Of a stretch of DNA of 39,847 nt, positions 3,090 through 35,560 are shown piece by piece. Location of the stretch: contig JAAUQL010000050.1 in NCBI GenBank assembly GCA_012033595.1, forward strand, positions 1-39,847, given 5' to 3'. Positions within the stretch are counted from its first letter, which is position 1. Each line of letters starts with the position of its first letter. The stretch comes from Cyclobacteriaceae bacterium (lineage in GTDB: Bacteria > Bacteroidota > Bacteroidia > Cytophagales > Cyclobacteriaceae). The notes below the pieces were generated by a model. That model worked only from the letters and a program-made list of their open reading frames with translations. It ran no database searches and had not been told where the DNA came from. The position numbers were made by a program, and so were the translations under genes.

Positions 3090-3795
3090 ATTTTTAACAT
3101 AACTATCCTATCACAATAAATAATTGTGTTTAACATTCTTCTACTTCGTATATCCAATGATTTTCGTATGCTGGAAGCAAATGTTCCAAAAAAACCAATA
3201 TGGGCATATTTCCTCCCAATAAAAAGCTGCGGTCTATCAATAATTGCAATGGCGTGCTTCACATAATCTAAAAATTGTATGCAATTACTAATAATAAAGT
3301 TAACAAAATAAATATTTATTATACAAGCACTTTTAATAATTATTTCTCCTTTGCTGGAATTAACTTTGTATTAATTTCTCTTCATAGGTGTAGATGTACA
3401 ATTGCCACTTGGTTTTTTTGGAGAACCCACCACATAAAGCATGTTCCTCATCGTTTCCCGCTAGTAGCAGGCAGATTTCACCTTCGACCGATAGGGCTTC
3501 GCTAGCAATAATTGAGGAAAGTTGGTGCACTTCCCCAAACTACACCACGCATTGCCGCCTTTGTAAACGCTTTGCGCAACGTAGCGACGTAGCAATCTCT
3601 GTCCAGTTGCGATGTTGCTCCAAGCCGAAACCGGCTTTGTTTTCCCAATCCAAAAGAATGTCCAAAGTCGCCGGCTAATTTGCAGTAACAAAGAGCTCAT
3701 ACATATTTGCTCAAGCAGATATTTTTCACCACTTTCACCGTTGATTGACTTCCGGGATTATTATTCTCTTGCGACACCCTAACCGTAACAGAATT
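3090..3795. other. Non-coding interval with a degenerate dispersed-repeat copy
   Basis: No convincing gene is seen in these 706 bases. The left half is AT-rich and likely holds the promoter of the minus-strand operon. Around 3569-3610 the sequence 'gcgcaacgtagcgacgtagc' followed by 'aatctctgtc' is a diverged copy of the forward module found three times at 33.8-34.5 kb. Short ORFs here follow the repeat and look non-functional. Confidence 0.55.
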
Positions 3796-4814
3796 ATGAT
3801 CGTTGTTCAAAACTACCCTTTGGCCGTTATTTTTACTATCCTGGCAATGATCTGCTGGGGCTCCTGGGCCAATACTCAAAAACTTGCCGAGCATAATTGG
3901 CGCTTCGAATTATTTTATTGGGACATGGTCATAGGCATATTTTTGCTTGGCTTGTTGGCCGCCTTTACTGTGGGCAGCATGGGCGATTATGGTCGTTCGT
4001 TTGCAGAAGACCTTGGCCAGGCCAACACTTCCAGCATAGTTTCGGCCATGTTAGGCGGCATACTCTGGAACCTGGGCAACCTCTTGCTGGTGGCTGCCAT
4101 CGCGGTAGCAGGCATGTCTGTTGGGTTTCCCATTGGAGGTGGCATCGCGTGGGTGCTTGGTATCGTGGTCAATTATGTGCTTATAGTCATGGACAAAGGA
4201 AAATCTGACGATGACACTACCTTGCTCTTTGCCGGTGTGGCGGTGATTGTGGTGGCCATCTTATTGAGCATGCAGGCGTATAGAAAATTGGCTTCGGAAC
4301 AAAAGAAACCTACTACCAAAGGTATTTTGCTTTCGGTTTTTGCCGGGCTGCTGATCGCTTTTTTCTATGGCTTTGTGGTCAACTCGCTCGACAACACCTT
4401 TGTGGCCGGTGGCACAGGCACCTTGACTCCTTACACAGCCATTGTCTTTTTGCAGCCGGCGTGTTGATTAGTACCTTTGTTTTCAATCCCATTTTTATGG
4501 CCAGGCCGGTACAAGGTGCACCGGTCAAAATGGCCGAATACTTCCGGGGCAATCTGCGCACACATATGACAGGCGTGCTGGGTGGAGCCATTTGGATGCT
4601 TGGTATGGTACTTAGCTTTATGGCGGCTGGTTCGGCAGGTCCTGCCATTTCATACGCCTTGAGCAACGCTGCTCCGGTGGTAGCCATTCTCTGGGGGGTG
4701 CTGGTTTGGAAAGAGTTTGCCGATGCCCCCAAAGGCACCAACAAGCTGTTGGTGATCATGTTTATTGCTTATCTGATCGGACTCACCCTCATCACGTATT
4801 CCAAGGTAACATAA
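3796..4814 (+). CDS. DMT-type sugar permease (RhaT/GRP-like), frameshifted
   Basis: This is an inner-membrane permease of about 339 residues with ten predicted hydrophobic segments. It resembles the Bacteroidota drug/metabolite superfamily members close to rhamnose/glucose-type sugar transporters. Recognisable features are the N-terminal CWGSWANTQKL, the FPIGGGIAWVLG segment and the C-terminal ISYALSNAAPVVAILWGV with WKEF. The ATG at 3796 begins just before the first membrane segment. The frame breaks at the T run 4447-4451: one more T changes the premature LQPAC ending into the continuous FAAGVLISTFVFNPIFM. The break is probably a sequencing or assembly error. The gene lies beside a LacI regulator and an apiose pathway, so D-apiose is the inferred cargo, but nothing in the sequence proves the substrate. 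Confidence 0.75.
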
Positions 4815-4845
4815 AGCGAGCTAAGTCAAAATGCCGCCTCGCTTT
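4813..4845 (+). terminator. Weak candidate terminator after the permease
   Basis: Arms 'aaagcgag' (4813-4820) and 'ctcgcttt' (4838-4845) pair perfectly around a 17-base loop, starting at the permease stop codon. Only a poor T-stretch follows (ggggatttt). It could end permease transcription ahead of the convergent lacI-type gene, but the long loop makes it uncertain. Confidence 0.3.
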
Positions 4846-4950
4846 GGGGATTTTCGGTGGCATGCAAGGTATGTCGTTGGTTTCATGTGAGGGTATGTGT
4901 AAACACAAATGGGCTTGCCAAGCTGTCTGGCACTTCGCATATGTCCGGTA

Positions 4951-5964
4951 CTAGGTAGATGCACGCCAGATGAGTTCGGTTTCCAGTATTTTGGTTTGAG
5001 GGGTGAAATTTTCAGGGTCGAAGTCTCGTTCGGAGAGGAAGATGCGTGCGGCCTCCTGGCCAATTTCAAAAGCCGGTTGCTTGATGGAAGAAAGTGAGGG
5101 ATATAAAAAAATATCATAAGGTTCGTCATTAAATCCAATTACCGCCACATCATCTGGTACGGCAATATTATGCTCTCGCAATGCGGCCAACACCCCGGCA
5201 CAAGTACGATCGTTGACCGCAAAAATCCCGTCAAATGATTTGCCCTCGGCAATCATCTTTTTGCACGCTTGATATCCCATTTCCTGATTGAACTCGCAAT
5301 AGATGAGTAATTTTTTGTCTATGGGCAAATTATGGTTTTTTAGTGCTTTTTCGTACCCCCGGTATCTGATCGCCGATATCCGCAGGTTTTTTGGCCCGGC
5401 GATGTAGGCGATACGCTTTTTGCCCCTTTCGATCAGGTGATTAACGGCCGTGATAGCGCCTTTTTCATTGTCGATTATGACCTTGGAAGCTTTTTCATAA
5501 TCGGGTACCCGGTCAAAAAACACAACCGGGACGCCTTTTTTTTGTGCATACATAAAGTGGTCATAATCACCAGCTGACTGAGCCAAAGAGGCGATGATGC
5601 CATCGACCCGCGAAGCCACCAGGTTTTTGACATGTACCACCTCCTGGTCGTGCGATTCATTGCTTTGACAAATCATGACACTATAGCCGTGGCGATCGAG
5701 CACTTCTTCCATTCCACTGATGGCCGCTGAGTTGTAGTGGTAGCCAATTTTAGGCACCAACACCCCCACAGTAAACGAACGGTTTTTGAGCAAGCCCAAA
5801 GCCAGTGGGTTGGGAATATAATCGAGAGAGGTGGCCAGGTCTATGATTTGTTTTTTGGTTTCTGCCCCGATTTCATGTGAGTCTTTTAAGGCACGCGATA
5901 CCGTCGATGTGCTCACGTTGAGCATTTTGGCTATGTCCTTAAGGGTGATCTGGCGTGATTTCAC
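4951..5964 (-). CDS. LacI-family transcriptional regulator
   Basis: This 337-residue repressor-type protein has an N-terminal LacI helix-turn-helix (about residues 7-27, TLKDIAKMLNVSTSTVSRAL), a hinge helix with IPNPLALGL, and a periplasmic-binding-protein-like ligand domain (about 63-335) with typical GIFAVNDRTCAGVL and GFNDEP motifs. The chosen start is GTG at 5962-5964, because no ATG precedes the HTH. It is divergent from the apsD-oiaX-apnO operon and convergent with the permease. The most likely job is control of apiose genes in response to apiose or a pathway intermediate. That ligand is inferred from position only; the family assignment is firm. Confidence 0.9.
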   Translation of the reverse strand: MKSRQITLKDIAKMLNVSTSTVSRALKDSHEIGAETKKQIIDLATSLDYIPNPLALGLLKNRSFTVGVLVPKIGYHYNSAAISGMEEVLDRHGYSVMICQSNESHDQEVVHVKNLVASRVDGIIASLAQSAGDYDHFMYAQKKGVPVVFFDRVPDYEKASKVIIDNEKGAITAVNHLIERGKKRIAYIAGPKNLRISAIRYRGYEKALKNHNLPIDKKLLIYCEFNQEMGYQACKKMIAEGKSFDGIFAVNDRTCAGVLAALREHNIAVPDDVAVIGFNDEPYDIFLYPSLSSIKQPAFEIGQEAARIFLSERDFDPENFTPQTKILETELIWRAST

Positions 5965-6051
5965 TAAATATAATTATTTTAATAAGCTACAAAAGGATGG
6001 AGCAATCAAAAAACGGTGTTGGTTTGCCTTGTAAAAATGGCAATATAGCAT

Positions 6052-6073
6052 ATTATGCAAAGCATTGCGTAAT
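6052..6073. promoter_or_regulatory. Putative LacI-type operator
   Basis: Arms ATTATGCAA (6052-6060) and TTGCGTAAT (6065-6073) form an inverted repeat with 8 of 9 positions pairing around 'agca'. Size, symmetry and the TGCAA half-site suit a LacI-family operator. It lies 88 bases upstream of the lacI-type gene and about 290 bases before apsD. Confidence 0.55.
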
Positions 6074-6142
6074 TATTTCTTCGTCTATGTATAGTAATAC
6101 GAAGATGTATCTCTAATTTCAGCCTAAATGCTGATGAATCAG

Positions 6143-6257
6143 GCAATTCTCATGGGGACAGGAAAAGCGTGTACTTTATAGCAACAAGGGAATGATATTC
6201 CCGAAAGTCAATCGCAGCATTTTGTATAGTCGATGTCTTTTCCTGTTCTTGAATTGC
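6143..6257. repeat. Imperfect long inverted repeat upstream of apsD, with nested palindrome
   Basis: The left arm 6143-6167 (gcaattc...caggaaaag) is complementary to the right arm 6237-6257 (cttttcctg...gaattgc), with a few unpaired bases. Near the middle lies GGGAAT-gat-ATTCCC (6188-6202). The whole could form a hairpin in a long apsD leader transcript, or be a relic of a small inverted-repeat element. No T run follows, so it is not an intrinsic terminator. Confidence 0.5.
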
Positions 6258-6365
6258 TATAGTTGTATTTTTTTATGATGAAAAACCAGGCCAAAATGAA
6301 AGCCGTCCATCTTGCCTGGATGGGGACGGTACTCAGTTTGGCCAAAACCCAAAACTCAATAACGG

Positions 6366-7400
6366 ATGAAAAAGCTAAGATTCGCCATATTTGGCACCGG
6401 GTTCTGGTCGCAGTTTCAGCTTGGTGCCTGGCAGGAATTGGAGGGTGTGGAATGCGTCGCTTTGTATAACCGGACCAAAGAAAAGGCCGATAAGCTCGCT
6501 GCGCGTTTTGGCCTGACCCGCACCTACGATGACCCCGAAGCGCTACTGAGCACAGAGAAAATCGATTTTGTAGATATCATCACCGATGTGGACACACACC
6601 TGCATTTTGTGGAATTGAGCGTGAAGCACGGCGTAAAGCACATCATCTGTCAAAAACCCATGGGTCCCGACTTTGCCTCATGCAAAAAGATGATGGAGGT
6701 TTGCCGGTCTGCCGGTGCCAAACTTTATATACACGAAAACTATAGATGGGAGCGCCCTTTGCCCCGGTTCAAAGAAATATTGGACAGCGGCGCCATAGGT
6801 AAGCCGTTCAAAGCGCGTGTTTCGTTCAATTCAGGATATCCTGTTTTCGATAATCAACCTTTTTTGGCCGAGCTCGATAAATTTATTCTCACTGATATGG
6901 GATCGCATGTTTTTGATGTCACCCGGTTCATGTTTGGCGAATGCAAGCGGCTATGGTGCCAAAAGCGTACGGTTAATCCAAAAATAAAAGGAGAAGATGT
7001 GGCATCGGTAATGTTGCAAATGGAAAATGGCATGCCGGTTTTCACCGAATTGTCTTATTCATCGATAGTGGAGCACGACGCGTTTACCACGGTGTTTATT
7101 TTCGTGGAGGGTGACAGCGGTTCTATGTATATGGGGCCGGGATTTGAGATCAGAACCACCACCAAAGCCGGTACGACATCAGAAGTAGTCACTTTCCCCT
7201 CATACGATTGGGCAGATCCCAATTATATCGTAAATCATGAAAGTGGTATTCCCATCAATCAAAATATTCTCGATGATATGCTTGGGTTGGGAAAGGCCGA
7301 AACTACCGGCGAAGACAATTTTAATACCGTGAAGATGGTGTGGGCAGCCTATGCATCTGCCGAAAGGGGAGAAATAATTGAACTGGACAAATTCGAATGA
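6366..7400 (+). CDS. apsD: Gfo/Idh/MocA oxidoreductase, probable D-apiose dehydrogenase
   Basis: This 344-residue cytoplasmic NAD(P)-dependent oxidoreductase has an N-terminal Rossmann fold with GTGFWS (residues 10-15), the conserved QKP motif with Lys97, and the substrate-side D-M-G-S-H motif (Asp177, His181) followed by VTRFMFGE. D-apiose dehydrogenase, known in Bacteroides-type apiose loci, belongs to this family and oxidises D-apiose to D-apionolactone. The family alone does not give the substrate. The assignment rests on the adjoining OiaX-like and ApnO-like genes, and the nearby GH140 and ApnL-like genes. Its stop overlaps the next start as ATGA (7397-7400). A LacI-type operator and a long leader lie upstream. 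It could instead act on another pentose. Confidence 0.75.
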   Translation: MKKLRFAIFGTGFWSQFQLGAWQELEGVECVALYNRTKEKADKLAARFGLTRTYDDPEALLSTEKIDFVDIITDVDTHLHFVELSVKHGVKHIICQKPMGPDFASCKKMMEVCRSAGAKLYIHENYRWERPLPRFKEILDSGAIGKPFKARVSFNSGYPVFDNQPFLAELDKFILTDMGSHVFDVTRFMFGECKRLWCQKRTVNPKIKGEDVASVMLQMENGMPVFTELSYSSIVEHDAFTTVFIFVEGDSGSMYMGPGFEIRTTTKAGTTSEVVTFPSYDWADPNYIVNHESGIPINQNILDDMLGLGKAETTGEDNFNTVKMVWAAYASAERGEIIELDKFE

Positions 7401-8218
7401 GGATAGGTCTTGGAACATATGCATTGGCCTGGTCTATTGGCGTACCCGGGCATTCGCCGAAGCAACCCATGGATATTTACAGCTTTCTGAATTTTGCCAA
7501 TACACATGGTTTTCGACTCGTGCAAATTGCCGACAACCTGCCCCTGCTCCAACTTGGCAATGATGAATTGGAAAAAATCTATAAAGTAGCCAGAGCGCTG
7601 GATATTGCCATAGAGCTTGGCACAAGGGGTTTGACCTTGTCGAATGTAGAACAACATTTGGCCATCGCCCGACTGCTCCATGCCGATTTGCTGCGGATAG
7701 TGATAGACAAGGCAGACTACCAGCCCGATATGAATACCATCCATGCTACCATTAAAGCACTAGTGCCACTACTCGAAGCATGCCATATCAGGTTGGCTAT
7801 CGAAAATCACGACAGGCTAAAAGCATCGGATTTTAGTAAGATCATAGAGCAGGCCAATAGTGCGCTGGTAGGTATCTGCCTCGATTCGGTCAACTCCCTT
7901 GGTGCCGACGAAGGCTTTGCCAGTGTTTTCGAAGTCCTTGCCCCCCATACCATCAATCTACACCTAAAAGATTACACCATACACCGCAAATCGCACATGA
8001 TGGGATTTGATGTGACAGGCACACCGGCCGGTGAGGGCATGTTGCCGATAAGGGAAGTGGTAAAGGTGTTGGAATTTCATGGCAAGTGCCAATCGATGAT
8101 ATTGGAACTTTGGCCTGCACCAGAGCCTGCCTTCGAAGACACAGTGGCCAAAGAGCAACGTTGGGTGGAGCAGAGTGCCCGATATTTATTTCACAATTTT
8201 AAAAATACAACCCTATGA
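7397..8218 (+). CDS. oiaX: TIM-barrel isomerase/epimerase-like protein, probable 3-oxo-isoapionate decarboxylase
   Basis: This 273-residue protein of the AP-endonuclease-2/sugar-phosphate isomerase TIM-barrel family has probable divalent-metal ligands Glu136 (IENHD), Asp163 (CLDS), His189 (HLKD) and Glu237 (LELWP). In the published Bacteroidota/proteobacterial apiose pathways, an enzyme of this fold (OiaX) decarboxylates 3-oxo-isoapionate to L-erythrulose. The gene is translationally coupled on both sides: its ATG overlaps the apsD stop and its TGA overlaps the apnO ATG. That tight order supports action on the ApnO product. The fold call is firm; the decarboxylase function is inferred from context and family. 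Confidence 0.7.
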   Translation: MRIGLGTYALAWSIGVPGHSPKQPMDIYSFLNFANTHGFRLVQIADNLPLLQLGNDELEKIYKVARALDIAIELGTRGLTLSNVEQHLAIARLLHADLLRIVIDKADYQPDMNTIHATIKALVPLLEACHIRLAIENHDRLKASDFSKIIEQANSALVGICLDSVNSLGADEGFASVFEVLAPHTINLHLKDYTIHRKSHMMGFDVTGTPAGEGMLPIREVVKVLEFHGKCQSMILELWPAPEPAFEDTVAKEQRWVEQSARYLFHNFKNTTL

Positions 8219-9042
8219 CAAAAGTAGTATTAGTAGGCGCAGGTGGCAAAATGGGCTGCCGCATCACCAGCAATTTAAAAAATAGCAAATATGCCATGTC
8301 TTATCTGGAGTTGAGCCCCGAGGGACAAAAACGACTTGCAGATCTCGGTGTGTCTGTTTCCATAGCAGATCAAGTGTTGCAAGACGGAGATATAGTGATA
8401 TTGGCTGTGCCGGATGTGGCCATCGAAACGGTCTCTGCACAGGTGATCCCTCAAATGAAACCCGGAGCCCTGCTCGTCACCCTGGATCCGGCTGCTGCCT
8501 TTGCCGGCAAAATATTCCCGCGTGAAGATATCGCCATCTACGTCACCCATCCGGCCCATCCGTCCATATTCAACTGGGAGCCCGACGAACAAGCTCAGCG
8601 CGATTTTTTCGGGGGCTCCCTGGCCAGACAGGTGGTGGTGAGCGCCATCATGCAGGGCAGTGAGGCAGACTATGCCATTGGCGATGAGCTCAGCAGGTTA
8701 ATGTATGCCCCTGTAACGAAAAATTATAAGATCACGGTAGAACAAATGGGCTTGCTCGAGCCTGCACTGGTAGAGACGCTGTGCTCTACCTTGCAGGTCA
8801 TTGTGCGCGAAGCCCTGGATATAGTGATAGAAAAAGGCGTGCCGGCCGATGCTGCCAGAGACTTTTTGTTGGGCCACCTCAACATCCAGTTGGCAGTGCT
8901 CTACGACCAAATCCCCGGAGCCGTTTTTTCAGATGCGGCCAATAAAGCCATTGTCCGGGGCAAGCCACTGCTGATCAAAGAAAGCTGGCGCGAGGTTTTT
9001 GAACCCGACAATGTAATGGAACAAATCAGGGATATTACCTAG
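8215..9042 (+). CDS. apnO: NAD-binding oxidoreductase, probable D-apionate oxidoisomerase
   Basis: This 275-residue cytoplasmic enzyme has an N-terminal Rossmann glycine motif GAGGKMG (residues 8-14) and a helical C-terminal half of the phosphogluconate-dehydrogenase/ketol-acid reductoisomerase-like type. D-apionate oxidoisomerase (ApnO) has this build. It moves a hydroxymethyl group and oxidises D-apionate to 3-oxo-isoapionate. Fitting features are the THPAHPSIF segment and the all-helical region with QMGLLEPALVETL. The ATG lies in the ATGA overlap with oiaX. It is the last gene of the coupled trio; about 190 bases without a gene follow. A related hydroxyacid dehydrogenase role cannot be excluded, but the pathway context makes ApnO the best reading. 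Confidence 0.75.
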   Translation: MTKVVLVGAGGKMGCRITSNLKNSKYAMSYLELSPEGQKRLADLGVSVSIADQVLQDGDIVILAVPDVAIETVSAQVIPQMKPGALLVTLDPAAAFAGKIFPREDIAIYVTHPAHPSIFNWEPDEQAQRDFFGGSLARQVVVSAIMQGSEADYAIGDELSRLMYAPVTKNYKITVEQMGLLEPALVETLCSTLQVIVREALDIVIEKGVPADAARDFLLGHLNIQLAVLYDQIPGAVFSDAANKAIVRGKPLLIKESWREVFEPDNVMEQIRDIT

Positions 9043-9236
9043 CAGTTGTCCATCGGCAAGAAAAGCACCTGCGCAGCTTTCCTTTACGGAAAAAAATCAC
9101 ACCGGTAAAGGAGGAGCCAGGTCGATAAGCTTACCGATAGCCCAATGCGCTTTTTATGCCTATAGCGTTGATTCCCATCGGGAAACAGCCCAGATTAAAA
9201 AGACATATCAGAAATATACATTACAATAAAAACCTC

Positions 9237-9455
9237 ATGAAAACGCAACTACTAAGCATGGTACTGGTACTGGTTACTTTTTTTTCCGCTTTCGCGAATG
9301 TAGAAGTAGCCATTTGGCATAAGCTGGAAATCGGTTTCGTGAGTAGCAAATCCTATCAAAATCCCATTTATGAAATAAGGAAATTAAGTCTTAGCTTCAC
9401 TTCTCCCTGCTCAACATATTTGGAAAACTGCAAGTCAAAACTAATTTTGAAATAA
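9237..9455 (+). pseudogene. Remnant of a DUF5060 glycosidase N-terminus
   Basis: This 72-codon ORF starts with a signal peptide (MKTQLLSMVLVLVTFFSAFA) followed by VEVAIWHKLEIGFVSSKSYQNPIYEI and FTSP. That looks like the first 40 or so residues of a DUF5060 domain (compare W-K-V-E-L-S-F-T-G in the full-length gene at 19.1-20.9 kb). After FTSPCS the resemblance stops and the frame ends, 11 bases before the GH140 start codon. The best reading is a deletion that removed the rest of a DUF5060 glycosidase gene. A functional small secreted peptide is possible but less likely. Confidence 0.55.
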
Positions 9456-9466
9456 AATAAATCATT

Positions 9467-10804
9467 ATGAAAACTTTATTGGGTCTCCTTGTTGGAGCGT
9501 TATTCTTTTTGTCACCGGTTTTTTCACAACAATTGAAGGTAAGTGAAAACAACAGGCACATAGTGTACACTGATGGTAAACCCTTCTTTTGGCTTGGGGA
9601 TACTGCCTGGGAGCTTTTTCATAGATTAGACCGCGAAGAGGCGGATTTGTATGTACAAAACCGGGCAGAAAAAGGCTTTACCGTCATTCAGGCTGTGGTG
9701 CTTGCCGAGCTCGATGGGCTCAATGATCCTAATCCTTATGGCGATAAGCCTTTAATTGACAATAATCCTGACAAACCAAACGAGGCCTACTTTAAGCATG
9801 TGGACTATATTGTAAACAAAGCAAATGAACTGGGTATTTTTATGGGAATGCTTCCGACCTGGGGAGATAAATTTAATAAAAAATGGGGCGTGGGTCCGGT
9901 AGTATTTACTGAAGCCAATGCCTTTAACTATGGCAAATTCCTGGGCAATCGCTACAAAGACAAAAAAATAATATGGATAATGGGAGGTGATCGCAACCCC
10001 GAAAATGAATCCCAATTGAAAATAGTGAGGGCTATGGCCAAAGGCATAGCAGAGGCCACTGCCAAAAAACAGCTAATTACCTATCATCCGATGGGTGGCA
10101 GCAACTCCTCTCAATGGTTCCATCAGGATGAATGGCTCGATATCAACATGTACCAGTCGGGGCATGGCGAGGTGAACAACCAAAACTACAAAAAGACACT
10201 GGCCACCTACGAAATGACTCCGGCCAAACCAGTGCTGGATGGCGAACCATGCTACGAAGACCATCCGATAAACTGGAATGGGCAAAATGGATGGTTTGAT
10301 GCCTTCGACAGCCGACGCGCCGGTTGGTGGTCGATGCTGTCGGGAGCTTGCGGTCATACCTATGGCAATCATAATATTTGGCAAATGTGGCAACCGGGGC
10401 GACAGCCAATATCTGCGGCAAGGACTCCCTGGCAGCAATCCATTGATTATCCCGGGGCTTTTGAGGCCGGATACATGAGGGCATTTTTCGAAAATATAGC
10501 ATGGCAAACCCTCACACCTGCCACCTCGCTGGTGAAACAAGGACCAAATACACATGGTATGGATGTGCTGGCTGCCTCCTCGGTCGATGGCGCGCTGTTG
10601 GTGGCCTATTCGCCATATGGCTCCAACTTTAGTCTTGACCTGGGTAAAGTAAAATCTGAACAGCTTGCTGCCAGTTGGTTTAACCCTCGAAACAACAGCT
10701 ATGTGCAACTGCCCAATCTGCAAACCGGTGCCATTGTTCAATTCGATCCTCCGGCCGATCCGGTTCGTGGCAATGATTGGGTGCTCATGCTCATGGCGAA
10801 ATAG
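9467..10804 (+). CDS. GH140-like glycoside hydrolase, probable apiosidase (DUF4038)
   Basis: This is a secreted enzyme of 445 residues. A signal peptide (about residues 1-21, ending FSQQ) is followed by a DUF4038 TIM barrel (about 30-345) and a C-terminal beta domain of the 'putative collagen-binding' type (about 355-443, ending GNDWVLML). The barrel shows Asp175 (MGGDRNPE) and Glu260 (LDGEPCYE), which suit the acid/base and nucleophile of GH140. The founding GH140 enzyme releases D-apiose from rhamnogalacturonan II side chains. Adjacent apnL and the upstream apsD-oiaX-apnO genes make apiose release the natural first step. Export to the periplasm or outside is inferred from the signal peptide, and no T9SS domain is present. 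Other DUF4038 proteins have different specificities, so substrate is not certain. Confidence 0.8.
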   Translation: MKTLLGLLVGALFFLSPVFSQQLKVSENNRHIVYTDGKPFFWLGDTAWELFHRLDREEADLYVQNRAEKGFTVIQAVVLAELDGLNDPNPYGDKPLIDNNPDKPNEAYFKHVDYIVNKANELGIFMGMLPTWGDKFNKKWGVGPVVFTEANAFNYGKFLGNRYKDKKIIWIMGGDRNPENESQLKIVRAMAKGIAEATAKKQLITYHPMGGSNSSQWFHQDEWLDINMYQSGHGEVNNQNYKKTLATYEMTPAKPVLDGEPCYEDHPINWNGQNGWFDAFDSRRAGWWSMLSGACGHTYGNHNIWQMWQPGRQPISAARTPWQQSIDYPGAFEAGYMRAFFENIAWQTLTPATSLVKQGPNTHGMDVLAASSVDGALLVAYSPYGSNFSLDLGKVKSEQLAASWFNPRNNSYVQLPNLQTGAIVQFDPPADPVRGNDWVLMLMAK

Positions 10805-10833
10805 TCCTTTCAACTAATTAAAACCCGGAACAC

Positions 10834-12725
10834 ATGAAAGAAACTTCACAAGAGATGCTCTGGTATGGAAGCAACAAGGCATTGCCTCCCATCCATCAGC
10901 TCAAAGCTGGCCGTTTAGAATTGAATTATACTTCCGGACTTATAAGAGATATTAAAATAAACGGCATCGAAGTGCTGCGCATGGTATATTTTGCCCTTCG
11001 AGACAGCAAATGGAACACCATACAGCCAAAAGTGGAAAATGAGGTGTTTGCGCAAAGTGAAGCATCTTTTGAGCTAGCGTTTGATTGCATATACCAATCG
11101 AAGGAAATCGATTTTATATTTCACGCATCCATTCAGGGTACAGCGCTCAATCAGCTCGTTTTCGAAATAAGGGGTGAGGCGTTCAGCGATTTTCAAACCA
11201 ATCGAACAGGCTTTTGCGTGCTTCATCCCATAGGCAATTGTGCCGGAGAAGACTGTAAAATCGTTGCTCCGGATGGTTCCATGTCTATCGCACGGTTTCC
11301 GGTATTTGTTAGTCCGCACCAGCCTATGTTCAATATCGCTCAAATGTCGTGGAATATCGGAGATGACGGCAAGGCCACGCTTGAATTTTCGGGCGATGTG
11401 TTTGAAATGGAAGACCAGCGCAATTGGACAGACGATTCTTACAAAACATATTGCAGGCCGCTTGCCCTGCCTTTTCCGTACGACCTGCAAAAGGGTGACA
11501 AAATCCACCAACAAATCCGGTTGGAAGTAGAAGCGCCAGCTATATCAAATGCCCAAAGAAACCAGGAATATCTCTTCCGTTTCGACAATCGTGGAGTAAA
11601 AACCTTGCCGAAAATAGGCATTGGAAGACCGAAAATCACGCCTGTGTTAAGTGAACACGAGGCCAGGCTGATAGCAGATGTGGGATTCGACTTTTACGAT
11701 GTGGCACTGGCTTTTGTGGACGGGTGGCAAGCAGAACTAAAAAATGCAACACAGGAGGCTAAAGTACTTGGCCTTTCGCTAAAGCTCGAGGTTCAGTTTT
11801 CAGATAATTATAAAGATCAGATCGACGCGCTAAAGCAGGCATGTGAAAATGAAAATTGTGTGCCATCACATATCATGATGCTACGCTCCGGCAAATTGGT
11901 GACACCAGATGCCTTTACAGACCTGGCGCTGCCGCTTTTGCGCAAGGCATTTCCATTGGCCGCGATAGGTGGCGGTACCATGGGTTTTTTCGCAGGCCTC
12001 AACCGCAACCGCATATTGCACCAGGAACTGGATTTTGTATCATATGCCATCAATCCGCAAGTACATGCCGTCGATCAACAAACCCTGATTGAAAACCTGA
12101 AAGGGCAGTCGGCAACGGTGATCACAGCAAAATCTTTTCGGATAAAAAGGGGGTAAACATAAGCGCCGTCACCCTCAAACCGCCTGCTGGTGCTTTTCCA
12201 AAGGCTTATGACGCCTCAGATCAAGAACCGGCAGAAGATGTGGACAGCAGGCAGGCAGCGCTCACGGGCGGGGTTTGGACTCTGGGATCGATCAAGGAGC
12301 TGAGCGAAGTCGGAACAGAGGCGCTTACCTACTACCAAACCGTGGGTTCGAAAGGAATAATTGCGGGCGGAAAAACGACCATGATTTATCCGATGTATTA
12401 TGTATTTGCCGAGATATTAAAACACAATCATGCAAGCCTGTTGACTTCGCGATCTTCGCATCCGCGCGTATTTGAAGGCATAGTGCTCGAACATCAAGGT
12501 CAGAAAACTATGATTCTTGCCAACTTGACCGGAGAACATATAGTAGTCGGCATAGAAGGGATGGCGGAAAATGCCAGGATAAAAAAGCTGGACGAAAAAA
12601 GCATGGAAAAGGCCATGTACCACCATGAGGAATTTATGGCATCGCCCTTCTGCACGTTTAAATTCGAACAGCCTGTCAGCAATATCAAGATCAGGCCATA
12701 TGGGCTGGTGTTCATCAGCGAATAA
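10834..12725 (+). CDS. apnL: Probable D-apionolactonase (ApnL), frameshifted
   Basis: This cytoplasmic protein has about 630 residues once one frameshift is repaired. The family hydrolyses D-apionolactone, the ApsD product, to D-apionate. Recognisable parts are a beta-rich N-terminal half with IRDIKINGIEVLRMVYFALRD and a TIM-barrel-like second half (VGFDFYDVALAFVDGW). The first frame ends at a TAA at 12154. Adding one T to the run 12135-12138 continues the frame as SFSDKKGVNISAVTLKPPAG and on to 12725 without a stop. No signal peptide is visible, in keeping with action on intracellular lactone. It starts 29 bases after the GH140 stop, so the two are probably one transcript. Family recognition is from memory of the motif pattern and context, not a search. 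Confidence 0.7.
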
Positions 12726-18366: not shown

Positions 18367-19029
18367 CTATTCCCTCAGTCTTTCATCCGGCCCGGTTCCA
18401 TTGGGTTTTTCATACTTTGTCGATAGCACAAATTTGTCGAACTCAAAGCCGTCTTCACGCATCGAAAATTGAATTTCGTGCAAGCCTTCCTGTTCAATTT
18501 CTATAAAAATCAATCCCGGCTTGCCACAATGTTCTTCCTCGGTTCTTTGCTTGCTCGCCCAGCTCCATTCATTTTTGCCTTCGCACCATTGCATTCTCTG
18601 TCCGCTTTCCGGCCATGTTCCGTCTATTCCCATATGAATGCCATTGTCTTCAGTGCCTGTACTGTAGGCCCTTACCCACACATAGTATTTGCCCGGGGTA
18701 TTGAAATATACCTGATAGTGGAGAATTGCCATCTGCCCGGCTACATTGCTGAAGTTTTCTCCGGTCACCAGCTTGTCGGCATGCGTTATTCTGGTGTCGG
18801 GCAAGCATTCCAGATAGGAGTTGGCGCTGGCATTGCCGGCATGAGCGTCCGTAACTATATCCCATTGCCTCACGTTATGCAGCGATTGCCGGTGGAAATG
18901 TTCGGCTTCTACCGCCACCACACCATCGCGTTCTTCAAAAGTCGGGTGTTGATTTTTTTCAGGTTTCTGGTCTATCCGCGGGGTTGTTGTGGCCAGAGAA
19001 ACCCAACACAATGCGATAAGTAATTTCAT
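18367..19029 (-). CDS. Secreted carbohydrate-binding-like domain protein
   Basis: This 220-residue protein has an N-terminal export signal (MKLLIALCWVSLATTT). The rest is one domain resembling the galactose-binding-like C-terminal modules of large glycosidases. It opens with VVAVEAEHFHRQ, continues with YLECLPDTR and GKYYVWVRAYSTGTEDNGIHMGIDG, and closes with GLHEIQFSMREDGFEFDKFVLS. No catalytic residues are evident. It lies 44 bases downstream of the DUF5060 glycosidase in the same direction, so it is probably co-transcribed and may bind the same glycan. The ligand cannot be inferred. It could be a detached accessory domain of the upstream enzyme. Confidence 0.7.
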   Translation of the reverse strand: MKLLIALCWVSLATTTPRIDQKPEKNQHPTFEERDGVVAVEAEHFHRQSLHNVRQWDIVTDAHAGNASANSYLECLPDTRITHADKLVTGENFSNVAGQMAILHYQVYFNTPGKYYVWVRAYSTGTEDNGIHMGIDGTWPESGQRMQWCEGKNEWSWASKQRTEEEHCGKPGLIFIEIEQEGLHEIQFSMREDGFEFDKFVLSTKYEKPNGTGPDERLRE

Positions 19030-19073: not shown

Positions 19074-20900
19074 CTATTGGTTTTTTGTCAATAAGATAGC
19101 CCAGTCTTTGTCGCCGTCTTGCGGGGCGCTGCCCAGTTCGATCACTGCGCCACCACTCACCGTACCGATATCGGTTTGTTGCAATTCACCTCCCGTGCGA
19201 GGGTTGAACCAACGCAGGGTAAATTCGCCATTTGTTGCCAACAGATCAAGGGTAGAGGTGCCTCCATAGGGCAGATAAACCAGGTAGTATTCGCTGGCTT
19301 TGGCCAGGCAATAGTTGCCTTGAGTCACCAGTTCATCCCTGGGTTCCATTTCCCAAAAAGGAACATATCTTTCGAAAAAGCGAAGTGTATTGCTGGTATA
19401 ATCCCACATTCGGTCGCGCGATCGCCAGTCTTCTGCTCCTAGGTCGTTATTGTGGTTTTTATAACCAAAATACCATTCGGCACCACCTCCACCGGCCATC
19501 AGGTTGCCCCATAGCACTTCGCTGCGCACGGTATCCTGGTTGTGGTCAGCTCTGTCGTCCGGATCTACGCCACGGTGAGCCGGGCCAATTTCATCTATGC
19601 ATACCACCCATGGGTGGCCTGCTTCGGCAGAGGCTTTCGTCCAATGGAGTGTCTCTGTATGGGCATCGCGCATATTATGAATCTGTATGGAAGGCCCGTC
19701 GATGTGGGCATCGCCCAGCAGCTGATCGAAGATTTCGTAACGAGGCTGAGGCGCGGCATGGGTATGAATGGCGAGGAAGTTTTGGTATGGATTAATGCTT
19801 TGCAAATATGCCGACATGGCTTTTTGCTGAGGCACGGTTTGCGCTTTGGGCGTAAAATCAGCAGGTCCATTTTCTTCACCCATATTCCAGGTAATGGCCA
19901 GGTGGTGACCAAATCGGGCAACAAGTTCGCGATAATACAATTTGCGCTGAAGGCCGGTGTCCCCATTGTCGAGCAGCAGTTCGTTTTCCGTCTCCTGGGT
20001 AACAATGTGCAGCATAAGCCCGAGCTTTTCCATGTGGTCAAAGACCACTTCCCACTGGGCGAGTTTAGAGCAATCGAAGCGTAGGCGCTCTTCGTAGCTG
20101 GTATATGGCCATACATCTTTACCATCGCCTTCTATGTTCATGGTGAGAAAATATACCGAATTGATGCCTTTGGAGGCCAGATAGTTGATGGCGCCTATCA
20201 GATTTTTTCCTTTGCCACCCTGCCAGGCCGGGTCGCCGGTTTTCCAGTCTTGTGCATGAGCTTCGTAGCGGTGAAGTTGCGCTTTGTTTTCGGCCTCGCC
20301 ACTTCTTTCTTCGGGCGAACTGCCTTTATAGGTGCCATCAAAATCGGCATAGCCCAGCAGGTTTTCCGGGCTGTCAGCGCCTCCCTTGAGGAAGTATTCT
20401 CCGGTCTCCTGAAATTGCAGATATCGACCGCCTACGTAATTGAGCCGCCCTTTGGCCCTTAGGTCTGGCAGTGAAGCCAAACTTTCTTTCACATTAATTT
20501 TGCCTGTTTGTCCGTCAAATGCAAGGGCTTCCCCGGCTTCGGGGTCTGGATCTACAGCGATATTTGCGCCTTTTCTAAAAGAGGCCATATAAGTCCAGGT
20601 TCCCACTTCGTCAGGACGGAAAACAACTTTCCATATGGCTCCTGCCGTGGCGCTGCTTTCTGCGGCATTTCCATCAGCAGCAAAATACCCCGGTACGGTA
20701 TATTTTTTTTCGCCAAGCGAAAAGGTCACATTCATCCGGTAGTCGGTAAATGGGTTGATCGTATCAGCTTCTGACGTTTCGGGGCCAGTAAAAGAGAGTT
20801 CTACCTTGTCCCATTTGTCAGCTTCTATACTTTTTGGAGCATGGCAGCCGTAGATGCTAAAGAAGGTGAGGAGGAACATTATGGGTGCAAAGAATTTCAT
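19074..20900 (-). CDS. DUF5060-containing glycoside hydrolase-like lipoprotein
   Basis: This 608-residue protein has a lipoprotein leader with Cys19 (SIYGC), so surface or periplasmic anchoring is expected. DUF5060 spans about residues 28-120 (WDKVELSFTGPE ... FRPDEVGTWTY). A TIM-barrel catalytic domain follows (about 145-500), and the C-terminal beta domain is of the 'collagen-binding' type (about 515-607, ending KDWAILL). Candidate catalytic acids are Glu342/Glu343 (WNMGEENG) and Glu437 (CIDEIGPA), in the usual strand-4 and later-strand positions of such barrels. The substrate is unknown. Relatives sit in loci for plant and algal polysaccharides. It is followed by a carbohydrate-binding-like gene. 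It is not clearly a member of a named GH family as far as can be judged by eye. Confidence 0.8.
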   Translation of the reverse strand: MKFFAPIMFLLTFFSIYGCHAPKSIEADKWDKVELSFTGPETSEADTINPFTDYRMNVTFSLGEKKYTVPGYFAADGNAAESSATAGAIWKVVFRPDEVGTWTYMASFRKGANIAVDPDPEAGEALAFDGQTGKINVKESLASLPDLRAKGRLNYVGGRYLQFQETGEYFLKGGADSPENLLGYADFDGTYKGSSPEERSGEAENKAQLHRYEAHAQDWKTGDPAWQGGKGKNLIGAINYLASKGINSVYFLTMNIEGDGKDVWPYTSYEERLRFDCSKLAQWEVVFDHMEKLGLMLHIVTQETENELLLDNGDTGLQRKLYYRELVARFGHHLAITWNMGEENGPADFTPKAQTVPQQKAMSAYLQSINPYQNFLAIHTHAAPQPRYEIFDQLLGDAHIDGPSIQIHNMRDAHTETLHWTKASAEAGHPWVVCIDEIGPAHRGVDPDDRADHNQDTVRSEVLWGNLMAGGGGAEWYFGYKNHNNDLGAEDWRSRDRMWDYTSNTLRFFERYVPFWEMEPRDELVTQGNYCLAKASEYYLVYLPYGGTSTLDLLATNGEFTLRWFNPRTGGELQQTDIGTVSGGAVIELGSAPQDGDKDWAILLTKNQ

Positions 20901-21899: not shown

Positions 21900-22918
21900 A
21901 TGATGAGAATATCGGACAAAACCAACCCTACGGAATACCGCGCAGTACAAGACCGGTACGATGAAATGACCTATAGACGATGCGGAAACAGCGGAATCAA
22001 ATTGCCGGCGATATCCCTGGGGCTTTGGCATAATTTCGGTTTTGTCGACAGTCTGGAAAAGGGCAGGAACATGCTCAGGGCTGCCTTTGACGCCGGCATT
22101 ACCCACTTTGATCTGGCCAATAATTACGGACCTCCGTATGGATCGGCAGAGGAAAACTTCGGAATCATACTAAAAAGGGATTTTTGCATTATCGCGACGA
22201 ATTACTCATTTCGTCTAAAGCAGGATACGACATGTGGCCTGGTCCGTATGGAAATCTGGGTTCACGGAAGTACCTGATCGCCAGTTGCGATCAAAGCCTG
22301 CTACGCATGGGTCTGGAATATGTTGATATTTTCTACCACCATCGGCCCGATCTCGATACCCCGCTCGAAGAAACCATGGGCGCCTTAGACCATCTCGTTC
22401 GCCAGGGCAAGGCCTTGTATGTTGGTATTTCCAACTACCCCGCAGACCTGGCCGAAAAGGCAATATGTATTTTGAAAGATATGGGAACCCCCTGTCTTAT
22501 CCATCAGGCACGATATTCTATGTTTGATCGATGGGTAGAAGACGACCTGCTCGACATTCTCGATGACAATGGTGTCGGCTGCATTGCTTTTTCCCCCCTG
22601 GCGCAGGGCATGCTTACAGATAAATATTTAAATGGGATACCGGAAGGTTCACGCGCTTCCAAAGAAATGAGCTACCTGGAGCGCAATCAGGTGGAATCGC
22701 AGCTTCCCAAGATAACGCTGCTCAATGCCCTGGCTCATGATCGTGGCCAAAAGCTAAGTCAGATGGCATTGAGCTGGTTGTTGAAAGACGACCGCATCAC
22801 CTCCGTGCTTATCGGCGCCAGTTCGGCCAGTCAACTAAAAGAAAACCTCGATGCGCTGGATAAGCTGGAGTTTGATGAAGATGAAATCAGAAAAATTGAT
22901 GAAGTACTCAAAGGCTAG
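21900..22918 (+). CDS. Aldo/keto reductase, YghZ/Gpr-like, frameshifted
   Basis: This cytoplasmic NADPH-dependent reductase has about 339 residues after repair of one frameshift. It resembles the glyceraldehyde-3-phosphate reductase-type AKR family (E. coli YghZ). The N-terminal pattern RYDEMTYRRCGNSGIKLP and LGLWHNFG supports a start at the ATG pair 21900/21903. The catalytic tetrad is present: Asp and Tyr in FDLANNYG, Lys in SSKAGYD and His in FYHHRPD. NADPH-binding IGASSASQL lies near the end. The first frame stops after an out-of-frame RDFCIIATNYS. One more T in the run 22181-22185 gives RDFLHYRDELLISSKAGYD. Function in aldehyde reduction or detoxification is inferred; linkage to tetrose metabolism is only speculative. 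Confidence 0.85.
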
Positions 22919-32346: not shown

Positions 32347-33635
32347 ATGAAATTTTCAGAACTAGGAATTATCGATCCCATCCTCAAAGCCCTCGAGGCC
32401 GAAGGCTATTCACAACCCACACCCATTCAGGAGCAATCCATACCCATACTGATGCGGGGCAGAGACCTGCTCGGATGTGCCCAGACTGGCACCGGAAAAA
32501 CAGCAGCTTTTGCCATCCCCATCCTTCAGCACCTCATCAAAGACCGAATGCAGGACAGCGGTTCGCGCAAGATCAGGGCACTTATCGTCACCCCTACACG
32601 CGAGCTGGCCATTCAGATAGAGGAGAGCTTCAACGTATATGGCAAATACACCGGAGTGAAAAACGCGGTGATCTTTGGTGGCGTGAAACAAGGCCCCCAA
32701 ACGACCAAATTGCGTCATGGAATAGACGCCCTCATTGCCACCCCCGGGCGCCTGCTCGACCTGATGAATCAGGGTTTCATCTCGCTCAGGGACATCAAAT
32801 ACTTTGTACTGGATGAGGCCGACCGCATGCTCGACATGGGCTTTATCCACGATATCAAGAAAATTATTGCCAAATTGCCCGAGAAGCGTCAATCGCTCTT
32901 TTTCTCAGCCACCATGCCTCCGGACATTATTGCCTTATCGCAAAAATACTCGGCAATCCGGAAAGAGTAATCGTGGCGCCAAAGCAAACCACCGCAGAAA
33001 AGGTGGATCAGACGATATATTTTGTACACAAAAACGCCAAGGCCAAACTGCTGGTACACCTGCTGGAAACCAAAGACGTAAGGTCTGCTATCGTCTTTTC
33101 GCGTACCAAGCACGGCGCCAACAAAATCGTAAAGGAGCTTGGCAAAGCCAATATCGATTCGGCGGCTATTCATGGCAACAAGTCGCAGGGGGCGAGACAG
33201 CAGGCGCTGGGAAATTTTAAAAGCGGCGCTACAAAAGTGCTGGTGGCCACCGATATCGCTTCGCGCGGCATAGATGTAGAAGAGCTGTCGCATGTAATCA
33301 ACTACGACTTGCCTAATATTCCCGAAACCTACGTGCACCGTATCGGACGTACCGGACGAGCAAGTGCCAGTGGCGAGGCCATCTCCTTTTGCGATACCGA
33401 AGAGCGGGCATACCTTCGCGATATTGAAAAGCTGATTGCTCAAAAAATCCCCGTCGTGGCCGATCATCCCTATACCCACGACAAAAGTGATCTTTCACCC
33501 AAAATCCACGACCTGCCGCCACGCACCATTCATGAACATGTACTGCCAAAACAAAGCGGACGCACGGACGATAAAAAACGGGAAGGCAACAAAAACAAAA
33601 ACCGGTGGCGTCGTCGTTTTCAGCCTAAAAATTAG
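32347..33635 (+). CDS. DEAD-box RNA helicase, RhlE-like, frameshifted
   Basis: This ATP-dependent RNA helicase has about 429 residues after repair of one frameshift. All hallmark motifs are present in order: Q motif ([13 protein letters not shown]), motif I (AQTGTGKT), [19 protein letters not shown] ([12 protein letters not shown]), SAT (FFSATMP), then [25 protein letters not shown] and [10 protein letters not shown] basic tail ends [14 protein letters not shown], as in RhlE-type proteins acting in ribosome assembly or cold growth. The first frame ends after [10 protein letters not shown]. Adding one A to the run 32942-32946 gives [19 protein letters not shown], the normal inter-domain sequence. 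A broken core helicase is unlikely, which favours an assembly error. Confidence 0.92.
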
Positions 33636-33699
33636 TGCCGGGTAATTGGGTAGGCCTTTAGTTTAAATCTGTACCATGTGTTTGTAAATAGTCCAGATA

Positions 33700-34570
33700 T
33701 TGCCAAATCCCCCCTGCCCACCTTTGAAAAAGGGGGATTGGCCAGGATTTAGTAAAAAATATAAATCGCTTCCTTTAAAGCAATGATCCTCATAGTTCTC
33801 GGCCAATAGCTGGCAGATTGCCACAACTATTTGCCGTCTTTGCGAGGAGCGCTTGCGCAGCATAGCGACGCGGCAATCTCTGTCAATCTGCAATGATCCT
33901 CCCTGCCAGTAGCCAACAGATTGCCACACTACGCGAAAAGCTCCGTTCGCAATGACGGCGTAAGGCAGGCGCCATTGCAAACTGTCTGAATCAGGATGTG
34001 CAACTGTCTGAACCAGGATGGGCAGGATTGCAGGATGTGCAACTGTCTGAACCAGGATGGGCAGGATTGCAGGATGTGCAGGATTAGTAAAAAGTATAAA
34101 CATCTTCCCATTCCCTGCCAATAGCTGGCAGATTGCCACAACTATTTGCCGTCTTTGCGAGGAGCGCTTGCGCAGCATAGCGACGCGGCAATCTCTGTCA
34201 ATCTGCAATGATCCTCCCGGCCAGTCGCTGGCAGATTGCCACACTACGCGAAAAGCTCCGTTCGCAATGACGGCGTGAGGCTGGCGCCATTGCAAACTGT
34301 CTGAACCAGGATGCGCAGGATAGCAGGATGTGCAACTGTCTGAACCAGGATGGGCAGGATTGCAGGATGTGCAGGATTAGTAAAAAGTATAAACATCTTC
34401 CCATTCCCTGCCAATAGCTGGCAGATTGCCACAACTATTTGCTGTCTTTGCGAGGAGCGCTTGCGCAGCATAGCGACGCGGCAATCTCTGTCAATCTGCA
34501 ATGATCCTCCCGGCCAGTCGCTGGCAGATTGCCACACTACGCGAAAAGCTCCGTTCGCAATGACGGAGAA
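33700..34570. repeat. Tandem array of composite dispersed repeats
   Basis: Three copies of a 293-315 base unit start at 33811, 34126 and 34419. Each copy has a forward module 'tgcgaggagcgcttgcgcag' ending in 'gcggcaatctctgtc', then an opposite-facing module 'gattgccacactacgcg' to 'gttcgcaatgacgg'. The two modules are rough inverted copies of each other. The first two units are followed by 'ctgtctgaaccaggatg' and 'gcaggatt' short repeats. At the left edge, 'aatcccccct' pairs with 'agggggatt' (about 33703-33740). No protein is encoded; the ORFs here follow the repeat. Confidence 0.9.
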
Positions 34571-34630: not shown

Positions 34631-35560
34631 CTATTTCCCCTCACTCAGCAGATTCATGTCTTTCATCCAGGCTTGCACATTTTGTGGCCACATGTTGTGC
34701 GAAGTGCCATCTCCTCGACCCAATCCGTATCCATGTCCGCCGCTATGAAAGAGGTGCAACTCTGCTGCAACACCATGAGCGAGCAAAGCCTCATAAAATC
34801 CGATGCTGTTGGCTACGGGTACACCGGTATCGTCGCTCGAATGGATCAATATGGCCGGAGGGGTATCTTTTGTCACTTGCTTTTCATTGGAAAACCGGAG
34901 CATTTGTGCGTCAGAAGGGTTTTCGCCAAGCAGAGACTTCATCGAGCCAGTATGCATAATATCCCCTGACATACTGATGACGGGGTACACCAAAACCATG
35001 AAATCGGGTCGGCAACTCACTTGCTGAATGGGGTCTTTGGCATCTTTTATTCCCAGGTCGAAGTGGGTGCCTACGGTGGAAGCCAGGTGGCCTCCGGCGG
35101 AGAATCCCATGATGCCGATTTTGCCTGGTGCTATACCCCATTTTTCAGCATGGTATCGGGTCATCCTTACGGCGCGTTGGGCATCCGTCATGGCCACTTC
35201 GCTTTTGTCCGTGATGTTGTCAGAGGTTGGTAGACGGTTTTTTACCACAATGCCCGCCACTCCAATAGAGTTGAACCACCTGGCGATATCGTGACCTTCG
35301 TGCTTGATGGCCAGCAACCAGTAGCCGCCACCCGGACAGATCACTACCGCAGCACCGGTGGCCTTTTCCTTGTCGGGAAGATACACCGTGATGTCAGGAT
35401 CCTGAATATTGCGCACATGGCCCTGGTCAGTAATCTCCTCTTCGCCGATCAGTCCGGTGGAATAGGGTATTTTCCCAGTCCAAAGTTTCAGTGTTTCCTG
35501 GGCGTACAGGCTTTGAAAAGTCATGTACAGCACGATTGTCAAAATAAATGTAGTTTTCAT
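34631..35560 (-). CDS. Secreted alpha/beta-hydrolase, acetylesterase-like
   Basis: This 309-residue protein has a signal peptide (about residues 1-20, LYAQ). It has the alpha/beta-hydrolase features of acetyl-xylan esterase-like enzymes: oxyanion loop CPGGGYW (about residue 75), nucleophile elbow GFSAGGHLAS (Ser about 153), catalytic Asp in HSSDDTGVP (about 242) and His in SGGHGYG (about 276). It probably removes acetyl or similar ester groups from plant or algal polysaccharides in the periplasm. The substrate is not shown by the sequence. It is followed by a dispersed-repeat array and lies just downstream of the zinc dehydrogenase on the same strand (8-base gap), so the two are probably an operon. 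Confidence 0.85.
   Translation of the reverse strand: MKTTFILTIVLYMTFQSLYAQETLKLWTGKIPYSTGLIGEEEITDQGHVRNIQDPDITVYLPDKEKATGAAVVICPGGGYWLLAIKHEGHDIARWFNSIGVAGIVVKNRLPTSDNITDKSEVAMTDAQRAVRMTRYHAEKWGIAPGKIGIMGFSAGGHLASTVGTHFDLGIKDAKDPIQQVSCRPDFMVLVYPVISMSGDIMHTGSMKSLLGENPSDAQMLRFSNEKQVTKDTPPAILIHSSDDTGVPVANSIGFYEALLAHGVAAELHLFHSGGHGYGLGRGDGTSHNMWPQNVQAWMKDMNLLSEGK

Follow-up and report, generated by a model that had tools for sequence, protein, structure and literature searches.

The D-apiose pathways reportedly described by Carter et al. in 2018, in work that PMC6302742 also mentions, comprise the ApsD, ApnL and ApnO steps and the decarboxylation of 3-oxo-isoapionate, and known apiose systems take up the sugar through an ATP-binding cassette importer. 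The OiaK-OiaX branch (NF042436, NF042437) instead consists of a kinase and a protein, OiaX, which NCBIfam defines under NF042437 as RuBisCO-like and acting on a phosphorylated intermediate. Furthermore, PMC7939467 presents BT1012 as a beta-apiosidase acting on rhamnogalacturonan II (RG-II), and an intertidal isolate which, according to PMC11747546, carries the upper-step genes together with a kinase and a 4-phosphate decarboxylase grows on D-apiose. Here, we describe a related locus in a Cyclobacteriaceae bacterium, on contig JAAUQL010000050.1, which in its entire length of 39,847 bases constitutes the window analysed (assembly of 5.75 Mb in 234 contigs, 97% complete). A LacI gene and a divergent run encoding ApsD, a triose-phosphate-isomerase (TIM) barrel protein, ApnO, GH140 and ApnL span positions 4951-12725, and a permease gene adjoins them. 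Most probably, as judged from gene families and linkage, this is a LacI-controlled operon for apiose release and breakdown in a Bacteroidota-type bacterium. T9SS-like tails and a related flavobacterial locus (L024) likewise point to Bacteroidota. Among the publication matches listed (titles and abstract starts), none dealt with such a locus type in Bacteroidota.

The window has in common with the pathways of Carter et al. the ApsD, ApnL and ApnO steps and 3-oxo-isoapionate decarboxylation, but differs in that an apiosidase-type gene lies in the same run, no L-erythrulose kinase was found, the similarity to ApnL is remote, and a permease stands in place of the usual importer. In agreement with an earlier note on this DNA, Pfam and NCBIfam models and the nearest structures place GH140, ApsD, ApnO and LacI genes together within 3796-12725, and the open reading frame (ORF) coordinates bear out the ATGA overlaps that it had seen joining three genes, as 4-base overlaps at 7397-7400 and 8215-8218 link the first three enzyme genes. 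ApsD has the Gfo/Idh/MocA fold and matches the 5uhw group over residues 2-340 of 344, with the runner-up at 85 bits; although the structure database names 5uhw only “oxidoreductase”, we take this group to be the Agrobacterium apiose dehydrogenase, in which case the characterised ApsD is its nearest relative. ApnO matches PF16896 (PGDH_C) with 199.5 bits and is 51-53% identical to homologues in Shinella and Ensifer clusters, plasmid-borne, where homologues of the window ApsD (37%) and ApnO lie at most 6 kb from an ApnL exceeding the cut-off of NF049900 (805 and 816 bits, respectively); one gene of the Shinella cluster is annotated OiaX. GH140 scores far above the PF13204 cut-off of 26.5, is the single PF13204 match found in the window genome, and bears a putative signal peptide (by eye). 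It shares its full-length catalytic domain with the apiosidases 8t9w and, at 207 bits, 3kzs/5msy, presumably BT1012, but unlike these is joined to cytoplasmic apiose catabolism. Thus, the apiose reading is well supported: the nearest structures and the ApnL model point to it, as do the recurrence of the gene order and the apiosidase-type gene in the run. Nor did the genes come together by chance, since further genomes have them together as well.

Features of the putative apiose locus and the evidence for each assignment
Feature	Position	Strand	Evidence
Permease, Ureide-permease/RhaT-like, candidate apiose importer	3745-4467 and 4461-4814 (two frames)	+	Pfam, NCBIfam; open homologue in G398
LacI-family regulator, divergent from enzyme run	4951-5964	-	Pfam, NCBIfam; 56% to G398, 46% to G429
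Imperfect palindrome, 20 bp, probable LacI operator	6053-6072	+	2 mismatches to TTACGCAAANNTTTGCGTAA
ApsD-like D-apiose dehydrogenase (Gfo/Idh/MocA)	6366-7400	+	best PDB match 5uhw group, 249 bits
TIM barrel of the AP_endonuc_2 family, probable OiaC-type 3-oxo-isoapionate decarboxylase	7397-8218	+	Pfam and linkage to ApnO
ApnO-like D-apionate oxidoisomerase	8215-9042	+	PF16896; 5t57, 297 bits
GH140-type apiosidase	9467-10804	+	PF13204, 412.6 bits; 8t9w “Apiosidase”, 433 bits
ApnL-like D-apionolactonase, split	10834-12156 and 12240-12725 (two frames)	+	NF049900, 262 and 26 bits

Different from what the earlier note had proposed is the decarboxylase. The gene named there as OiaX-like encodes an AP_endonuc_2 TIM barrel and not a RuBisCO-like protein, and neither OiaX nor its kinase OiaK has a match in the window genome. 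We suggest that it is probably a kinase-independent 3-oxo-isoapionate decarboxylase, for which we take OiaC to be the name, although no NCBIfam model of that name was matched in the NCBIfam scan; the assignment is based on linkage. In an order-level sample of 390 genomes, the window genome included, all 18 carriers of the TIM barrel (near-full-length match, at least 35%) also possess ApnO, 17 of them within 5 kb and 14 within 150 bases. These counts leave out weak ApnO matches (27-32%, E 1e-4 to 8e-4) from 8 of 29 genomes, matches to the TIM barrel of at most 33% from 65 of 84 genomes, and a 149-residue fragment in G526 (72% complete, no ApnO), and as at most six candidates per genome were scored for the TIM barrel and ApnO, and four for OiaX, absences in them are not proof. 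In G530, both proteins share one open frame (L084:8696-10345) that has no linker, and therefore a single sequencing error at the stop could have created the fusion. Outside this sample, the operons of Erwinia E602 and Pantoea At-9b likewise have the TIM barrel beside ApnO, but with an additional dihydroxyacetone-kinase (Dak)-family gene, a triose-phosphate-isomerase-family gene and rpiB, all lacking from the window's run; ApsD, ApnL and GH140 had no match in the 14.8-kb stretch of these operons. The same-genus genome G398, which has no TIM-barrel match, carries homologous ApsD, ApnO, ApnL, LacI and permease genes around OiaX and OiaK, these two lying between ApsD and ApnO where the window has its one TIM barrel. 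G513 contains ApnO with neither the TIM-barrel nor the OiaX branch.

Several observations weigh against our interpretation. Two genes, those of the permease and ApnL, are frame-broken in the assembly, and the ApnL pieces both miss the NF049900 cut-off of 750, so that of the lactonase claimed by the earlier note the family match stands, while the protein is, as far as its sequence tells, a remote homologue only. ApnL-like matches also occur in G444, G190, G249 and a short contig of the same-genus G397 where ApsD, ApnO and the TIM barrel are all missing from the 12-20 kb fetched; those of G249 and G397 adjoin a GH140, and G397 has no TIM-barrel match at all. Searched alone against PDB, the TIM-barrel sequence had no match at 1e-3, and its profile found Art22, UlaE and 3tva; the comparison with characterised homologues that the earlier note had called for speaks for apiose in the nearest structures of the dehydrogenase, ApnO and GH140, but leads to ketose 3-epimerases as nearest folds for the TIM barrel. 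Moreover, in G595 and G608 the TIM barrel adjoins OiaX and OiaK, and ApnO is annotated within 7 kb of none of the four alphaproteobacterial homologues viewed (34-35%). Epimerase-like folds and the co-occurrence in G595 and G608 mean that the TIM barrel may catalyse another step, namely as an isomerase or epimerase on a pathway intermediate, with the upper pathway unchanged. We regard this as unlikely, since 15 of the 17 ApnO-linked TIM barrels in the sample lack an OiaX match within 5 kb of ApnO and the window genome lacks one altogether, which would leave no known decarboxylase there, and since OiaX and OiaK occupy the TIM barrel's place in G398.

That the two broken genes are true pseudogenes of a decaying locus would account for both frames, yet an RhlE-type helicase (near 32970) and an aldo-keto reductase (near 22180) are split likewise elsewhere on the contig, for which reason we favour assembly errors as the likelier cause; the remaining four enzyme genes have intact frames, and decay appears quite improbable. 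Open ApnL genes are found in several relatives, the same-genus homologue being open as far as its contig's end (319 bits), and five relatives score 242-355, each in one stretch. Least probable of all is that the locus acts with related enzymes on another branched sugar such as D-hamamelose, given a GH140-type gene so close to a solved apiosidase and a dehydrogenase whose nearest structure we take to be an apiose enzyme. One publication, to go by a title cited in PMC10176493, nonetheless concerns a RuBisCO-like protein from the breakdown of D-hamamelose, so related enzymes may serve other branched sugars. Of the 23 carriers of an OiaX-model match in the sample, 19 lack ApnO within 5 kb (18 without a strong ApnO match, one with it on another contig), and the OiaX model alone is therefore no evidence of apiose use. 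OiaX-model scores are 491-527 bits without nearby ApnO (e.g. G713:C34:163265-164491 and G694:C1:1018149-1019375) and 408-470 in the four beside ApnO; the proteins with no ApnO nearby may act on a different branched sugar, for instance hamamelose.

With regard to uptake, the sugar permease that the earlier note had counted as part of the locus is recognised by Pfam, both pieces passing Ureide_permease (50 and 38 bits, cut-off 27), whereas the RhaT model of NCBIfam is missed, the first piece reaching 34 bits against a cut-off of 369; besides being split, it lies outside the enzyme run, convergent with LacI and on its far side. G398 has an open homologue of 338 residues, 62% and 71% identical to the two pieces, which adjoins the homologous LacI. 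A plain inverted-repeat scan gave no clear operator. Comparison of the spacers upstream of ApsD in five LacI-bearing loci yielded the palindrome TTACGCAAANNTTTGCGTAA, a motif thus picked post hoc; G595 and G608 have it exactly, the window with 2 mismatches, G429 with 4 and G398 with 5. At up to 3 mismatches, 0.01 matches are expected across the window, and when the bases of the window spacer were shuffled 200 times, 2% of the shuffles came to within 5 mismatches and none to within 4; at L018, L024 and L050, three loci that lack this LacI, no site comes that close as 5 mismatches. The palindrome is thus a probable LacI operator.

Taken together, we propose that GH140 would act outside the cytoplasm, freeing apiose from plant material, and that the permease would import the sugar, after which ApsD would oxidise apiose to apionolactone, ApnL open the lactone to apionate, and ApnO, by a hydroxymethyl shift and oxidation, form 3-oxo-isoapionate, which the TIM barrel would decarboxylate to L-erythrulose with no kinase involved. 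Apiose or an intermediate would release LacI from its palindrome.

As to the source of apiose, the window proteins scanned included no further recognisable RG-II enzyme. The one GH140, five GH28 matches in the window genome (none on this contig) and a PaeX-like esterase at 34631-35560, under its model's cut-off, would fit pectin, without distinguishing RG-II from apiogalacturonan. A DUF5060 and Collagen_bind_2 protein (19074-20900) was rejected as a second apiosidase, having no PF13204 match at 0.01; it adjoins a GH115_C-like protein (18367-19029). DUF5060 proteins with an Apiosidase domain do occur at four apiose loci (L068:7455-9092, L078:9862-11517, L082:14745-16382 and L019:579-2111), and an ordinary GH140 was not found in the stretch of G773 or of the G429 ApsD locus. 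Elsewhere in the window, an ORF at 33663-34295, whose translation carries the same long stretch twice, probably reflects a repeat in the DNA and no true gene.

In its gene trees, the apiose locus looks like a mosaic. By its TIM barrel the window falls with G595 and G608 (99/98) and by its GH140 with G595 (82/100; 100/100 after a remote G773 row was dropped), whereas by its LacI it falls with G398 (97/95). A clade of window and G398 is rejected for ApnO (p 0.0002) and not for ApsD (p 0.19), and the grouping of G000, G398, G595, G608 and G773 is weakly rejected for both (p 0.033 and 0.034), all p values being loose since the groups were defined once the trees had been inspected. With trees so discordant, we do not claim a simple differential loss from a G595-like operon with both branches, from which window and G398 would derive.

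Contrary to the “full” locus with every step announced by the earlier note, the run stops at L-erythrulose, and the predicted locus is complete down to this product at best. Nothing in the window was recognised as taking it further, no Dak-type kinase matched in the window genome, and Dak1 has no match in any of the 21 TIM-barrel genomes (two less than 85% complete, one of unknown completeness), while four control plasmid records, chosen for a previously seen such gene, were all positive. In six proteobacterial neighbourhoods viewed, four have a Dak-type kinase and two have none; a split transketolase occurs in two, one with and one without this kinase, and a whole one in Pantoea. On the Paracoccus and Rhizobium plasmids (L026, L027), TIM-barrel homologues have genes for an SDR, a TRAP transporter and a split transketolase as neighbours, the Paracoccus neighbourhood also having the Dak kinase, and in a flavobacterial locus a transketolase gene begins beside GH140. 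Kinases of the FGGY family occur in G433, at 1.4 kb from a TIM barrel which stands apart from ApnO and beside a 3-keto-disaccharide-hydrolase-like protein (L051:9189-13035), and in the G415 locus, 1.9 kb past ApnL, so another kinase family is possible. Among gene clusters common to at least four of 28 loci, OiaK was the sole kinase, in the six OiaX loci. We tentatively raise the possibility, which we hold for somewhat doubtful, that in this group L-erythrulose formed from apiose joins central metabolism independently of a Dak-type kinase, for example as a two-carbon donor for transketolase or through an FGGY kinase, by a lower branch that would be undescribed.

The apiose locus is well supported and its kind of pathway already known; its special points are one renamed enzyme, the probable operator and the apiosidase-type gene that lies in one run with the catabolic genes. 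The next step of L-erythrulose is a sharply testable gap. Within one genus, the window and G398 would represent two alternative lower branches at the same position, and in the window the release of apiose from plant walls would be tied to its breakdown in one short operon.
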